This document shows, in pieces, positions 30,921 through 39,331 of a DNA stretch of 45,174 nucleotides (its first letter is position 1; every line of letters starts with the position of its first letter). The notes below the pieces were generated by a model, which was not told the DNA's origin, ran no database searches, and saw only the letters and a list, made by a program, of their open reading frames with translations. This DNA is from Terriglobia bacterium (GTDB taxonomy: Bacteria > Acidobacteriota > Terriglobia > UBA7540). Location: assembly GCA_020072655.1 (NCBI GenBank), contig JAIQGH010000006.1:1-45174 (forward strand), written 5' to 3'. The position numbers and the translations under genes are program-made.

Positions 30921-33548
30921 ATGAGCGATTTCTCCACCCCGCTGATGCGCCAGTACAGCGCCATTAAGGCGCGGCATCCAAACGCGCTGCTCTTGTTTCG
31001 CCTGGGCGATTTTTACGAACTCTTCTTCGAGGACGCAGTCGTCGCCGCGAAGGAGCTCCAGATCACCCTCACCTCACGCAACAAGGAGAAGGGCCAGCCT
31101 ATTCCCATGTGCGGCGTGCCGTATCACGCCGCGGAAGGTTACATCGCCCGGCTGATTCGCAAAGGCTTCCGCGTCGCCGTTTGCGACCAGATGGAGGATC
31201 CGCGCTTCGCCAAGAAGCTCGTCAAGCGCGAAGTCACCCGCGTCGTCACTCCCGGCACGGCCACCGACCCGCAGCTTCTCGAACCGCGCGAAAACAACTA
31301 TCTGGCAGCAGTGGTAGAACAAAACGGCTCGCTGGGCCTGGCGCTTGCGGACTTGTCGACCGGCGACTTCCGTGCCACGGAGTTTTCCGGAGCGGAGGCC
31401 GGCGCGCGCTTCCGTGAAGAACTCGACCGCCTGCGCCCGCGGGAACTTCTTGTTCCTGGTGACGCCTCCTCGAGAGCTTCATCTGAGATATCAAATCTCA
31501 AATCTGAGATTCCCGGCTTCACCCAGACCCGCCTGGACGATTGGGTCTTCAATCACGACTATGGCGCGCGACAGTTGCGCGACCATTTCCGCGTCGCGAC
31601 GCTCGAGGGCTACGGCCTCGCCAGCCACCCGCTGGCCGTCGCCGCCGCGGGGGCCATCCTCCACTATGTGCGCGAGACGCAGCGCGGCTCGCTCGCCCAC
31701 CTCGACGGCATCCGTTTCTACGAGCAGCAGGACGCACTGATCCTCGACCCCGCGACGCTGCGCAATCTGGAACTTCTGGAGCCGGCGTTTGGCGGCACCC
31801 GCGACACGACGTTGCTCGCCACCCTCGACCAGTGCGTCACCGCTTTCGGCGCGCGACTGCTGAAGCATTGGCTGCTTCACCCGTCGATCGATCCCGGGGA
31901 GATCACCGCCCGCTGGGAAGGCGTGGGCGAGTTCATCAAGGAGACAATCACCCGGGAAGAATTGCGTCGCGTGCTGGGCAGAATCTACGACCTTGAACGC
32001 TTGCTCAGCAAAGTGACGCTGGAGACGGCCAACGCGCGCGACTTGCTGGCCCTGAAGCAATCGCTCAGCCAACTGCCCCTCCTCAAGCAGCACCTGACTT
32101 CCTTGCGTGCCCCGCGGCTCATGAACATCCACGGCCGGCTCGATGAGCTCGCCGACGTCCACGAGCTGCTCGAGAAATCCATCCATCCCGAACCGCCGGT
32201 GCTGCTCACGGAGGGCAATCTGATCCGGCCCGGCTACCATACGGAGCTCGACGAGCTCCGCAGCTTGAGTCAGAACAGCAAGCAGTTGATCGCCCAGATC
32301 GAATCGCGCGAGCGCGAACGCACGCACATCGCATCGCTCAAGGTGCGGTTCAACAACATCTTCGGGTACTACATCGAGGTCTCGAAACCCAACCTGCACC
32401 TTGTCCCGGCCGACTACGAGCGCAAACAGACGCTCGTGAACGCCGAGCGCTTCACCACGCCGGAACTCAAGGATTTGGAAGCCAAGATCCTCGACGCCGA
32501 AGAACGGATGCAGGCGCTGGAGCGCGACCTCTTTCTCGAAGTTCGTCGCCAGGTGGGCGGCGAATCGCGCCGCATTCGCCAGACCGCTCAGGCGCTCGCC
32601 GAACTCGATGTGCTGGCCTGCTTCGCCTGGCTGGCCGCGGAGCGCAGTTTTCACCGGCCCGAAATCTCCGAGGACGGGGAACTCGTCATCGTTCAGGGGC
32701 GCCATCCCGTCGTCGAGCGCATCTGCGAGGCCGAGCAAGCCGGCCGGTTCGTGCCCAACGACCTCTACATGAATTCAACTTCCGACCGCATCCTCCTCAT
32801 CACCGGCCCCAACATGGGCGGGAAATCGACTTATCTCCGCCAGGCGGCGCTCATCAGCTTGATGGCGCAAATGGGAAGCTTCGTGCCCGCCGAGCGCGCC
32901 AAGCTGCCGATTTTCGACCGCATCTTCACTCGCATCGGCGCCTCGGACAACCTCGCGCGCGGACGGTCGACATTCATGGTGGAGATGACGGAAGTCGCCG
33001 GCATCCTGAATATCGCCACGCCGCGCAGCCTGGTGTTGCTCGACGAAGTGGGGCGCGGCACGGCAACCTTCGATGGTCTTGCCATCGCCTGGGCGGTGGT
33101 CGAGCACTTGCAGACCCACCGGCAGGCGAAAACCCTCTTCGCCACGCACTACCACGAGCTCACGGAGCTTGCGGACCTGCTCCCCGGCGTGCGCAACTAC
33201 CACGTTTCGGTGAAGGAATCGGGAGCGAACATCGTTTTTCTACGCAAAGTCGAGCCGGGCAGCGCCGACAAGAGCTATGGCATTTACGTGGCGCGCCTCG
33301 CAGGCCTGCCGCCGGCGGTCATCGAGCGGGCCCGAGAAATTCTGACTCGCCACGAGCAGAGCGAGCACACGTTGAGCGAGAAACTCGCCTCTCGCCGCGC
33401 GGCGGACGAGCCTGGCGCGGTCCAGTTGACCATCTTCACGCCCCTTAACGCCGAGGTCGTGCGCGCCATCGACCAAGCCGACCTCGACAACCTCAAGCCC
33501 CTCGAGGCTCTTAACCTTCTCGCCGAGCTGAAGAAACAGATCAAATGA
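30921..33548 (+). CDS. mutS: DNA mismatch repair protein MutS
   Basis: 875 residues, MutS1 length. The mismatch-reading Phe is in [13 protein letters not shown] (F-x-E). Walker A is [12 protein letters not shown], and the Walker B/signature region is [16 protein letters not shown]. The C-terminal dimerisation tail is [11 protein letters not shown]. It recognises mispairs and recruits MutL (not in this window). Residues about 188-198 ([11 protein letters not shown]) are encoded by a heptamer repeat (31482-31512) inserted in frame in the connector region. The following gene starts within the stop codon (ATGA at 33545-33548). Confidence 0.96.
31482..31512. repeat. Heptamer repeat within mutS
   Basis: The units TCTGAGA, TATCAAA, TCTCAAA and TCTGAGA (31482-31509) lie in the mutS frame and encode part of [11 protein letters not shown]. 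The base composition (AT-rich) differs sharply from the surrounding GC-rich gene, supporting a later insertion. Confidence 0.75.
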
Positions 33549-34585
33549 TTGCGTGCTCAGTTGCGGAAACGGGTCAGCTTCTCCTTTTGGAAGTCGGCCT
33601 AGACGAGCCCGCACGCAACCTTGAGTCGCTGCTGCGTTCTGTCCAGCCTGCCGGGGTGATCATCCGGGTTGGGCGACCGACGAATAAGGGGAAGCTCCGC
33701 ACGTTGTTGGTCAAGATCTCCCGCGCGCTTGGAATAAACGCACTCCTTGGAGCGCGCGGAGATGGGCTACCCGGGATGTTTCGACTACCCGTCCCTGGTC
33801 CGACAAGAACCGGCCAACAGGAACTGAGAATTATGGAAGCCCTCGCAGAAATACGCGGAGCGCTGCTCCGGGCGTTGGGTTTCAATATTGACTTCACGCT
33901 TTCTGTTGACCTAACGGAATCTGGCCGTCCGTTTGCGCCGGAGAGCAACGCGCGGCGGGTGGCTGTCCTCGCGCGGGCCTATGTCTCTGGATTGCGCCGT
34001 CAGGGAGTGCTGGCCTGCGCCGGAGCCTTTCCGGGACTGGCGAGCGTTGAGACAGACAAGGATTCCGGGGCGTCGGTAAGCGCCAAATCGATGGCCGCCT
34101 TGTGGCAAGAAGACCTGACCCCCTTCCGAGAGCTTCTCCCGCGCCTGCCGCTCCTCGCGATGAGCCCCGCCGCCTACGAGGCGTACGACTTCGACGTGCC
34201 GCGTCCGGCAATGCTATCTTCGAATGTCGTCACGGGCTTGCTTCGCGTTAAGCTCGGGTATCGCGGGGCTGTGGTAGCGCACCTCCCTCAACTCGAGCAG
34301 ACAGCAGGAAAAATCGAAGTGGGCGAATCAGCCGTCAAAGCTTTTGAGGCAGGCTGCGACCTCATCGTCGTGCGCGGAGACAAGACCTCTGTGGAACAGG
34401 CGGTTCAGGCGACCAGCGGCGCGCTCGGATCAGGAAAAATCTCACGCGAGCGCCTGCAGGAATCGCTGGGTCGAATTCGAGCTCTCAAGAGGCGACTGGC
34501 GGCTCAGAAGCGGCGAGCTTCACCGCGGGCAGTTCAACAGATTGCAGAGCGGATTGGGCAGCTCGCGAGAGATTCCGAGACCTGA
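33545..34585 (+). CDS. GH3 / NagZ-like protein without catalytic residues
   Basis: 346 residues. The order of blocks follows the GH3 beta-N-acetylhexosaminidase (NagZ) barrel: a family-like [13 protein letters not shown], then a position equivalent to KHFPGHGDT that reads [14 protein letters not shown] (about 157-170). A position equivalent to the TDDL nucleophile loop reads [12 protein letters not shown] (about 241-252). [18 protein letters not shown] follows, as in NagZ. Both the His dyad and the nucleophile Asp are missing, so hydrolysis is not expected. It is coupled to mutS and lies just before anmK, a peptidoglycan recycling gene. It may bind muropeptides or regulate recycling. No signal peptide. 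Confidence 0.7.
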
Positions 34586-34595
34586 GGGCAGAACC

Positions 34596-35774
34596 TTGAC
34601 GAAGAAGAACTGGAGAGCCCGTCTGGTGCTGGGGCTGATGTCGGGAACCTCGATGGACGGCGTGGACGCCGCGCTCGTGGAGATCAGCGGCTCGGCGGAA
34701 AGGCCGCGCGTGCGCCTGCGCTCGTTCACCACCACGCCCTATCGGCCCGAGGTGCGGCAACGGATCGCGCGCCTGGCTGCCGGGGAATCCAGTAATGCGG
34801 GCGTCATCAGCCAGCTCAATTTTCTGCTCGGCGAGGTCTTCGCAGAGGCGGCACTCAAGCTTTGCCGTCACGCTGGGGTTTCTCCTCGGCAGCTTACCGT
34901 CATCGGCTCGCACGGCCAGACGATCTATCACCAAGGGCTGCACGCGACCGAAGGTGGACGACAAATCAAAAGCACACTGCAGATCGCCGAACCCGCCGTG
35001 ATCGCCGAGAGAACCGGAGTTCCCGTGATCGCCGATTTTCGCGCCGCCGACATCGCCGCGGGCGGCCAAGGCGCGCCGCTGGTGCCGATGGTGGATTATC
35101 TGTTGCTTCGCGACGAGCGCGAGGGCCGCGTGGCGCTGAATATCGGCGGAATCGCCAATGTCACCGTGATTCCCGCGCACGCACGGCCTGAGCAGGTCTT
35201 TGGCTTCGACACGGGACCGGGCAACATGGTGATTGACGCCCTCATGCGCCGCTTCACCAGGGGTCGCAGATCTTACGATGCGGGCGGCGGCGTGGCCTCG
35301 CGCGGAAAGGTCATTGAGCCCGCTCTTGCCGGCGCACTCCGTCATCCGTTCATTCGCCAGCCGCCTCCGAAAAGCGCTGGCAGGGAGCAATTCGGCCAGT
35401 TGTTTGTAGCGTCGAATTTTCTGGCGCGGCGGCGGACTCGCTTCGAAGACGCGGTGCGCACCGCGACCGAACTCACGGCGCGAACCATCGCCGACGCGCT
35501 CGAACGCCTTGTATTTCCTCGTGCAAAAGTCCACCGGCTGATTGTCTCCGGCGGCGGCGCGCACAATCGCTTCCTTCTCAAGCGGCTCCGAGAGCTATTG
35601 CCTCAACTCTCCATCAACCTCTCCGACGATTTCGGCCTCCCCGTGGATGCGAAGGAGGCCATGGCCTTCGCTCTTCTCGCCGACCGCACCCTGCATAGTC
35701 TGCCCGGCAATCTGCCCAGCGTCACCGGCGCCCGTCGGGCGGTCGTGCTCGGCAAACTCGTGAGCCACAGTTAG
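34596..35774 (+). CDS. anmK: Anhydro-N-acetylmuramic acid kinase
   Basis: 392 residues from the TTG at 34596, which has a GAGGG upstream at about 8 bases; the frame is open further upstream but that part overlaps the previous gene and has no family match. VLGLMSGTSMDGVDAALVEI is the AnmK nucleotide motif. VIGSHGQTIYH, ADFRAADIAAGGQGAPLVP and FDTGPGNMVID are also typical. The enzyme converts 1,6-anhydro-MurNAc to MurNAc-6-phosphate in cell wall recycling. The stop overlaps the convergent MBL gene by 4 bases. Confidence 0.93.
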   Translation: MTKKNWRARLVLGLMSGTSMDGVDAALVEISGSAERPRVRLRSFTTTPYRPEVRQRIARLAAGESSNAGVISQLNFLLGEVFAEAALKLCRHAGVSPRQLTVIGSHGQTIYHQGLHATEGGRQIKSTLQIAEPAVIAERTGVPVIADFRAADIAAGGQGAPLVPMVDYLLLRDEREGRVALNIGGIANVTVIPAHARPEQVFGFDTGPGNMVIDALMRRFTRGRRSYDAGGGVASRGKVIEPALAGALRHPFIRQPPPKSAGREQFGQLFVASNFLARRRTRFEDAVRTATELTARTIADALERLVFPRAKVHRLIVSGGGAHNRFLLKRLRELLPQLSINLSDDFGLPVDAKEAMAFALLADRTLHSLPGNLPSVTGARRAVVLGKLVSHS

Positions 35775-36855: not shown

Positions 36856-37506
36856 TCATGCTGCGGAATCAGCTTCGACGGGCAGCGGCTCATTGTCCAC
36901 TCCGGGTGGCATCAGACGATGTTCAGTAAAGAAAAGGCGGAGAGCCTGCTCGATCCCCCACGCGGACTCGGTGTGCTCTGGGTAAGTGATCACGCGCACT
37001 TCAGAAGTGAACCGGTCGCTGGCGCCTAAGGCGTCGTGGAGCCCCTCGGTCAAGCGCTCGGCCACACGATAGGCGGCGTCCGAGCCAGCCCCGGGTAGTA
37101 GAATTCCGAAGACTCCCGGCGCAAACAGGTAAATCGAATCCTCCCGTCGCAAGCGGCGGGTCAGCGCCTTGGCGGCGTCTCCGAACGCCGCCCATATCTC
37201 ATTCTGATCGCTAATCTCGGGCGCGGAGACCAGGCGAACGACCAGGCGCGACAGCGGCTGGTCGGTGCCCGAGGCGCGCCTAACCTCCATCGGCAGACGG
37301 TCCTGGAAATGGCTGTACTCGGGCAGCGTTTTCAACAGGTCATGGCTGGCCTGGCGCCGCAGGGCGAGGTTTTGCATCTGCTCGTCAAGTAACAGCTTGC
37401 GGAGGTTGCGCATCGCCAGGTGACGATCCAATACGACTCGGGCCGGAATTGACCGAGGCAATCGTCCTGCCATCCACCGCGAGCCTGTAAGTCTCGCGGG
37501 TCTCAT
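36856..37506 (-). CDS. Degenerate GGDEF-like domain protein, possible frameshift near its start
   Basis: 216 residues as an open frame. Residues about 60-185 follow the diguanylate cyclase fold (PEYSHFQDRLPMEVRRA, then DSIYLFAPGVFGILLPG and AYRVAERLTEGL). The GG(D/E)EF loop reads APGVF, so no cyclase activity is expected. The first about 30 residues look like non-coding sequence. Another frame from a TTG near 37530 reads SHWIEIVDETRETYRLAVDG, which looks genuine, and ends out of frame near 37430. Removing one base there would join the two. Either the gene starts at the ATG at 37413 or it is frameshifted. A TATAAT lies upstream at 37561-37566. Confidence 0.6.
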   Translation of the reverse strand: MRPARLTGSRWMAGRLPRSIPARVVLDRHLAMRNLRKLLLDEQMQNLALRRQASHDLLKTLPEYSHFQDRLPMEVRRASGTDQPLSRLVVRLVSAPEISDQNEIWAAFGDAAKALTRRLRREDSIYLFAPGVFGILLPGAGSDAAYRVAERLTEGLHDALGASDRFTSEVRVITYPEHTESAWGIEQALRLFFTEHRLMPPGVDNEPLPVEADSAA

Positions 37507-37954: not shown

Positions 37955-39331
37955 TCATTCCGCAGCTTCCGACGCGTCTTCAGCCAGCAAGCGGTAAAGC
38001 GTAGCGCGGCTGACCCCGAGGATTTCGGCCGCCTGGACCTTATTCCCGCCCACGCGCTCGAGGACGCGCAGGGCGTGGCGCCGCTGAATTTCTTCCAGGG
38101 TTATGAACTCGTTGTCTTCCCCCGCGCCTTTGGGAATGGCTGCCCCGAACCGCGCCGGCAGGTCGCGGACATCAACGGTGTCCCCCTCGACCAACATGCA
38201 GGCATGGCCGAGGACATTTTCCAGTTCGCGGACATTTCCGGGCCAACTATATCGCGCCAAGATTGCCTGGGTGCGATAGGCGAGGCGCGCGAGGGGCTTG
38301 TTATATTGGGCCGCGAAGCGCTCCAGGAAGTAGCGCTCGAGCAGCGGCAAGTCCTCCTTGCGATCGGCCAGGCGAGGCAGCCGAATCTCGATCATGCAAA
38401 GTCGATAGTAGAGGTCCTCGCGAAACTTCTGATGGGCGACCTCCGCCTCCAGATCCCGATTGGTGGAGGCGACGACGCGCACGTCCACCTTGCGCGTGAC
38501 GGGCGAGCCGACGCGCTGGATCTGCTGGTCTTGCAGCACGCGCAGAAGCTTGGCCTGAGTAGCCATCGGCATCTCGCCGATTTCGTCGAGAAGCAAGGTG
38601 CCGCCCTGCGCGTACTCGAACAGGCCAATCTTGTCCTGGGTAGCGCCAGTGAAGGCGCCCTTCACATAGCCGAAAAGTTCGCTCTCGAAGAGCGTCTCGA
38701 CCACCGCGGCGCAGTTGCAGACCACGAAGGGGCCGGCGCGGGAAGGGCTCAAGCGATGCAAGGCGCGGGCCACCAACTCTTTGCCGCAGCCGGTTGGTCC
38801 GGTCACCAGCACCGTGCGGAAATGGGGCGCGACCCGCCGGATGCGCGCGAAGACCTCCAGCATCAGCGGGCTCTTGCCCACGATTCCCTCAAACTGCGAG
38901 GCTTCCAGGAGCTCGCGCTCCAAGTGCAAGGCCCGCTGTCTCTGCTGCGCGTCGGCAACCAAGCTGCCAACCCGTTCCCGGAGCTTTTCGAGGGAGATGG
39001 GCTTGGTGAGGTAATCGCAGGCGCCCTTCTGGATGGCCTCGACGGCGGAGTCCGTCGAGTAGTGTCCGGTCAGCAGGATCACGTCGATGCTGGGGTCGAC
39101 TTCCACGATCCGCTCGAGCATTTGCATGCCCGTCAGCTTGGGCATGATCAGGTCGAGGATGGCAATTTTCGGGCGGCGGCGCAGGACTAACTCCAGCCCC
39201 TGTTCGGAATCCGAGGAAGTGAGGATTTCGACGCCGTCCTGACTCAGGGCTGCTTTGATGAGGTCGAGGGTAAGGGGATCATCGTCGACCGCGACCAAAG
39301 TGACCGGCGCGGCATCTGAGGTCTTGTTCAT
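37955..39331 (-). CDS. NtrC-family sigma54-dependent response regulator
   Basis: 458 residues. The receiver domain (about 10-125) has the phospho-acceptor Asp in AILDLIMPK and DDDP at the acidic pocket. The AAA+ domain has Walker A GPTGCGKE, the sigma54 loop GAFTGA and Walker B GGTLLLDEIGEMP. The C-terminal Fis-type helix-turn-helix is VQAAEILGVSRATLYRLL. All elements for ATP-driven open complex formation are present. No cognate histidine kinase is in the window. I found no convincing sigma54 promoter (TGGCAC-N5-TTGC) next to it, so its targets are elsewhere. Confidence 0.95.
   Translation of the reverse strand: MNKTSDAAPVTLVAVDDDPLTLDLIKAALSQDGVEILTSSDSEQGLELVLRRRPKIAILDLIMPKLTGMQMLERIVEVDPSIDVILLTGHYSTDSAVEAIQKGACDYLTKPISLEKLRERVGSLVADAQQRQRALHLERELLEASQFEGIVGKSPLMLEVFARIRRVAPHFRTVLVTGPTGCGKELVARALHRLSPSRAGPFVVCNCAAVVETLFESELFGYVKGAFTGATQDKIGLFEYAQGGTLLLDEIGEMPMATQAKLLRVLQDQQIQRVGSPVTRKVDVRVVASTNRDLEAEVAHQKFREDLYYRLCMIEIRLPRLADRKEDLPLLERYFLERFAAQYNKPLARLAYRTQAILARYSWPGNVRELENVLGHACMLVEGDTVDVRDLPARFGAAIPKGAGEDNEFITLEEIQRRHALRVLERVGGNKVQAAEILGVSRATLYRLLAEDASEAAE

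Follow-up and report, generated by a model that had tools for sequence, protein, structure and literature searches.

A nagZ ortholog lacking its catalytic residues at the mutS-anmK locus of a Terriglobia family

NagZ, a GH3 beta-N-acetylglucosaminidase, is a single-domain enzyme with solved examples from Pseudomonas, Burkholderia, and Vibrio; YbbD of Bacillus is a two-domain protein. A structural account places the NagZ nucleophile on strand g and the Asp-His dyad on loop e, together with a Lys-His pair on strand e, an Arg on loop d, and an Asp on strand c, with Lys-His and the strand-c Asp holding GlcNAc in subsite -1 (PMC6987092). Translationally coupled overlapping genes with overlaps of -4 and -1 are known as well (PMC10666635).

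The locus examined here lies in a 45,174-nt window, the whole stretch of DNA analysed, from a Terriglobia bacterium (contig JAIQGH010000006.1), and its central gene is designated X. X shares with NagZ the domain, the predicted barrel, and the gene neighbour anmK, and it is the ortholog of the intact nagZ flanked by mutS and anmK in the class. Unlike NagZ, the window copy lacks the nucleophile, the dyad His, Lys-His, and the strand-c Asp. Compared with known coupled genes, a -4 overlap occurs alike at mutS/X and, in many genomes devoid of X, at mutS/anmK; here, however, the middle gene is a dead enzyme, and the coupling is putative. As in pseudoenzymes generally, the predicted fold and purifying selection are kept while catalytic residues are lost across a clade, but X differs from them in that it has been deleted more than once, truncated to a stump in one genome, and has taken up inserts in frame, with the overlap junctions kept. 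A literature search, whose coverage left most subscription journals outside, showed, among the papers listed, no account of a dead NagZ between mutS and anmK.

Identity, predicted fold, and active site

The sequence-only reading described a protein of GH3/NagZ barrel order placed next to mutS and ahead of anmK, and this arrangement is found as described: the ATG of X overlaps the mutS stop by 4 nt, and anmK follows after 10 nt (Table 1). X scores 89.7 bits against Pfam GH3_N (PF00933), for which the cut-off is 27, so the family assignment is not a matter of chance. The NCBIfam beta-N-acetylhexosaminidase equivalog NF003740 gives 78.6 bits, far below its cut-off of 207, although this cut-off by itself tells little, because the intact nagZ of G037 likewise falls below it at 201 bits. 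A phmmer search against solved structures matched 26 distinct sequences, all of which we take to be GH3, annotated as hexosaminidases, N-acetylglucosaminidases, glycosyl hydrolases of family 3, BglX, beta-glucosidase, and the lipoproteins YbbD and LpqI.

The AlphaFold2 model of X has a mean pLDDT of 87.0 and a pTM of 0.88. It was built from an alignment of X of the window with 23 relatives; as most of these are active enzymes, it indicates that the X sequence suits the GH3 fold rather than proving that X folds. The top Foldseek match is 3tev, a GH3 glycosidase (E 6.8e-20), and VIA-align gives, among the matches listed, 3lk6_D, a GH3 glycosidase from Bacillus, with Z 36.1 over 332 aligned residues and an rmsd of 3.2. 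The claimed barrel order is in agreement with both the domain score and the model confidence, and structure prediction with overlay, the check proposed earlier, returns a GH3 barrel whose best solved matches are GH3 glycosidases. X is thus predicted to be a TIM-like barrel of GH3 type.

Table 1. Positions of X, its altered sites, its neighbours, and the stump found in a related genome
Feature	Position	Strand	Basis or remark
mutS, 875 aa, upstream partner	30921..33548	+	Pfam MutS_I to MutS_V; adjacent in relatives
ATGA overlap of mutS stop and X start, 4 nt	33545..33548	+	sequence; exactly -4 in 12/14 loci checked
pseudo-nagZ (X), 346 aa, ATG	33545..34585	+	GH3-type barrel (predicted) without catalytic residues; PF00933, AF2 model, PDB matches, residue table
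Arg71, site of the strand-c substrate-binding Asp	33755..33757	+	residue table
Altered KHFPG loop [14 protein letters not shown], residues 157-170	34013..34054	+	Lys-His replaced by Gly160-Ala161
Asp-x-His dyad site	34055..34063	+	Asp171-Lys-Asp173: Asp171 kept, dyad His replaced by Asp173
Altered nucleophile loop/strand [10 protein letters not shown], residues 243-252	34271..34300	+	nucleophile Asp replaced by His246
Gap between X stop and anmK, 10 nt	34586..34595	+	up to the likely TTG start of anmK
anmK, anhydro-MurNAc kinase, 392 aa	34596..35774	+	PF03702 366.9 bits; NF007148 482.6 bits
Stump of X in G008, 75-codon ORF, in frame	L179 2342-2569	reverse complement	between mutS and anmK

Residue positions were taken from an alignment to active relatives. 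By this residue table both altered loops, the KHFPGHGDT loop and the nucleophile loop, had been read correctly, and the catalytic elements are gone as claimed, with His246 in place of the nucleophile, Asp173 in place of the dyad His, and Gly-Ala in place of Lys-His. The KHFPG loop combines substrate binding with the dyad and is not an acid/base element alone, the acid/base of NagZ being the Asp-x-His dyad just after it. The window copy is among the most changed of its family and, of 13 scored, the sole copy without both Lys and His of the Lys-His pair. From these replacements we infer that X no longer hydrolyses muropeptides. The muropeptide sensor suggested in the sequence-only reading is unlikely as one that uses the old pocket, because the residues that hold GlcNAc in subsite -1 are absent from the window copy and the active-site loops vary freely among homologues in the family.

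Catalytic loss and constraint across the family

The GTDB family of the window (f1) is represented by 39 genomes, of which 15 carry a complete or partial X. Only 4 of these 15 copies retain the nucleophile Asp and 1 of 14 the dyad His, while all three catalytic residues occur together in none of the 14 resolvable copies; an assembly gap leaves G007 resolved only at the nucleophile, where it retains DDLD. G002, G016, and G024 have Asp at the nucleophile place with the dyad lost, and G009 keeps Asp-Thr-His with Tyr at the nucleophile place. Since the copies have lost different residues, the f1 ancestor probably still had its catalytic residues, with loss occurring more than once. Retention of the nucleophile or the dyad in some copies, and of the His of Lys-His in 11 of 13 (the Lys in 7 of 13), would fit an X that remains catalytic by another mechanism or on another substrate, but nucleophile and dyad coincide in no resolvable copy, and the replacements at the nucleophile site (H, N, Y, F, and P) include no fixed acidic residue, leaving this explanation very improbable.

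Across the class, 94 of 399 genomes match the profile at E <= 1e-60, and 12 of these belong to f1. The set outside f1 comprises 80 rows from 79 of 82 genomes (G039 twice; G189, G305, and G395 left out), and all seven active-site residues are intact in 80 of 80 rows, under a score cut that favours well-kept genes and could miss rare dead copies outside f1. These intact relatives also lie between mutS and anmK wherever the flanking sequence shows it, including G037 of the sister family. Catalytic loss therefore appears, by this residue comparison, to be a trait of f1 and not a quirk of one genome. A sequencing or assembly error in the window, one of 209 contigs in an incomplete assembly, has negligible probability: the frame is open, the sister copy in G017 has features in common, and a dead or partly dead site occurs in 15 f1 genomes (in G007 at the nucleophile only), so that independent genomes of the family rule it out.

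Selective constraint was estimated with MG codon models, in which partly saturated distances make the omega values relative guides. Omega is 0.177 for eight f1 copies of X and 0.177 for eleven, and 0.148-0.153 where the window lineage makes up most of the set. By comparison, eleven active copies from another family give 0.095, AnmK gives 0.087-0.090, and MutS 0.068. A five-copy subclade (G001, G004, G012, G018, and G020), with Tyr or Phe at the nucleophile site and no dyad His, has an omega of 0.181, and fixing omega at 1 costs 245 lnL units there; a value of 1 fits far more poorly in each of the X sets modelled. Dead X is still constrained, about half as strictly as active NagZ.

These values bear on plain decay, in which the need for NagZ has gone and X is drifting, simply uninterrupted so far. 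Loss of catalytic residues by different routes, repeated full losses, change faster than in MutS and AnmK, and an omega about twice that of active relatives would all fit such drift. An omega near 0.18 in dead copies against 0.095 in active ones nevertheless argues that this is not plain decay, which is already disfavoured by the rejection of omega 1. Indels are in frame, overlaps are kept, and no interruption is seen in resolvable copies apart from the gapped G007, whereas a simple simulation leaves only 3.6% of ORFs open at 0.1 random changes per site; decay by itself is accordingly improbable. Loop conservation among homologues, for which the sequence-only reading named free variation as a refuting outcome, gives a divided result: the active-site loops do vary freely, but purifying selection acts on the remainder of the protein, which makes "decaying gene" an incomplete answer.

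S167, M183, A184, L198, F216, G231, A245, and G297 are fixed in 11 of 11 f1 copies and variable in active ones, lying away from the catalytic residues, and the loop YKAYDFD.PRPA after strand f is kept in X. Conversely, D71, R77, D171, H173, H208, D246, and M250 vary in f1, whereas no fewer than 17 of the 18 active rows have them unchanged. An omega well below 1, together with the fixed residues, favours a role at the protein level. X could thus be a working pseudoenzyme, folded and non-catalytic, binding AnmK, a muropeptide stem, or another partner through other surfaces and tuning recycling; the kept loop, the good predicted fold, and the strong rejection of omega 1 in the dead subclade are consistent with this. 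It ranks second among the explanations, plausible while falling clearly short of an even chance. The loss of GlcNAc-contact residues counts against it, as does divergence within the window's genus, where G000 (the window's genome) and G001 are 91% identical in MutS and 39% in X. In the X tree, G000 and G017 pair on long branches (100/99), while the MutS tree pairs G000 with G001 (100/99); given this conflict, exchange of X within f1 is possible, and the 39% versus 91% contrast may not reflect rate alone. A four-fold-site comparison does not separate fast evolution from horizontal replacement of X, with MutS and X near plateaus and GC3 differing.

Gene junctions, losses of X, and a possible translational link

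The -4 overlap of mutS and X has two exceptions, G002 and G024. A candidate anmK start at -8/-4 relative to the X stop occurs in 10 of the 14 f1 loci with both X and anmK (G002, G004, G007, G009, G011, G012, G016, G017, G018, and G020); the window (+10), G003, G024, and G027 have no such candidate. A promoter and terminator scan of positions 33300-34900 and an Rfam search of the window gave nothing useful. An extra 213 to 709 nt lie between X and anmK in G003 (L150 5322-6056) and G027 (L172 883-1109), where most relatives have a tight junction.

In 16 of the 39 f1 genomes mutS adjoins anmK with no match to X (G005, G006, G010, G014, G019, G021, G023, G025, G026, G029, G030, G031, G032, G033, G036, and G061); the mutS/anmK junction is unreadable in seven others (G013, G015, G022, G028, G034, G035, and G062). 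Those X-less genomes with a MutS row fall into about four groups on the MutS tree, counted by eye. Among 15 X-less loci with a readable junction, a candidate anmK ATG lies at -4 in eight and at -1 in one more, while G025 lost X without a tight mutS/anmK overlap. The stump in G008 begins like the N-terminus of X (51% over 39 aa to G012, E 4.8e-8) and ends like its C-terminus (45% over 20 aa to G000, E 4e-4), both E values referring to a tiny database. It overlaps the mutS stop by 4 nt (ATGA) and the anmK start by 8 nt, and represents one locus in an 85%-complete assembly.

Insertions into X are likewise in frame. In G024 (L167 4113-4187) a palindromic dispersed repeat lies inside X; counted on both strands it has 74 matches in G024, and the window's genome has 5. 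In G011 (L166) a repeated GAVLTAAGPSS-like run occupies the dyad loop. Tolerance of these insertions, and the loss or truncation of X in 17 of 39 f1 genomes with AnmK kept, both weigh against the working pseudoenzyme described above. The sequence-only reading also suggested a scaffold for AnmK, but AnmK is kept in 18 of 18 good genomes of the order, and in 16 f1 genomes it stands beside mutS in the absence of X.

The explanation placed first, at close to an even chance, is that X is a catalytically dead NagZ relic kept as the open, folded link of a coupled mutS-X-anmK translation unit. X in f1 has, by its sequences, lost its catalytic residues in several lineages through different losses. Ribosomes finishing mutS would re-initiate at the ATGA overlap to translate X, and ribosomes finishing X would do so on anmK, the overlaps being observed and the coupling deduced from them. 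An early stop or frameshift in X would then lower AnmK synthesis, so that point decay would be purged, whereas active-site missense changes, in-frame insertions, in-frame internal deletions, and clean deletions joining mutS to anmK would be tolerated, examples of each having been found. X would be retained mainly as an open, harmless, folded link.

The kept frame, the tolerated in-frame damage, and the kept overlaps together favour such a relay role, and a relay role and a protein-level role can both hold. A mere spacer should drift nearer to an omega of 1, yet the dead subclade stays near 0.18; selection for a stable fold could be the source of this low value. The +10 junction in the window, the 98 to 709 nt that separate X from anmK in G003, G027, and G024, and the loosely joined G025 also count against the relay. 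The locus provides a natural series at one syntenic site, running from intact enzyme through dead barrel, in-frame insertion, and stump to clean loss, which lets one ask if a dead reading frame can be held open through its coupling to the gene that follows.

Cell-wall recycling genes in these genomes

AnmK is present in 35 of 40 genomes of the order, and in 18 of 18 with completeness of 90% or more and contamination of 5% or less; MurQ exceeds its cut-off in 35 of 40 and NamZ in 36 of 40. Among the loci read, only G002, G004, G020, and G024 hold a second GH3 gene that shows the NagZ pattern, KHFPGHGDT followed by DSH or NSH and after that TDAL.M. The search for a second true nagZ, suggested together with the sequence-only reading, found no canonical copy elsewhere in the window's genome (96% complete, so that a missed gene is possible), and GH20 was not found in it either. 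Its five other GH3 places are unlike NagZ, those at C20, C53, C122, and C168 carrying KHYAVHSGPEP or KHFAVHSGPEP motifs, and that at C131, a 681-aa open frame truncated where its contig stops, having a similar non-NagZ look.

AnmK is retained in genomes where no canonical NagZ is seen, which raises the question of how anhydro-MurNAc is supplied in a family with AnmK and MurQ but no recognisable NagZ. A broader proposal, rather unlikely as a whole, is that f1 gave up NagZ, that dead X serves chiefly as a translational relay from mutS to anmK with selection guarding its frame, and that AnmK is fed independently of NagZ, perhaps through a cluster of NamZ, an SSF symporter, and MurQ.

Other features of the window's genome were annotated. 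A likely MurNAc salvage cluster at G000:C122 40000-50000 (L240 2270-8951) contains a fusion of a beta-lactamase domain with NamZ (about 736 aa), an SSF sodium symporter, murQ, and an EPSP-synthase-family gene that is probably murA. On the reverse strand of the window, positions 36856-37506 hold a 216-aa ORF with no Pfam match at E 0.001, and positions 37955-39331, near anmK, encode an NtrC-type response regulator with a sigma-54 activation domain.
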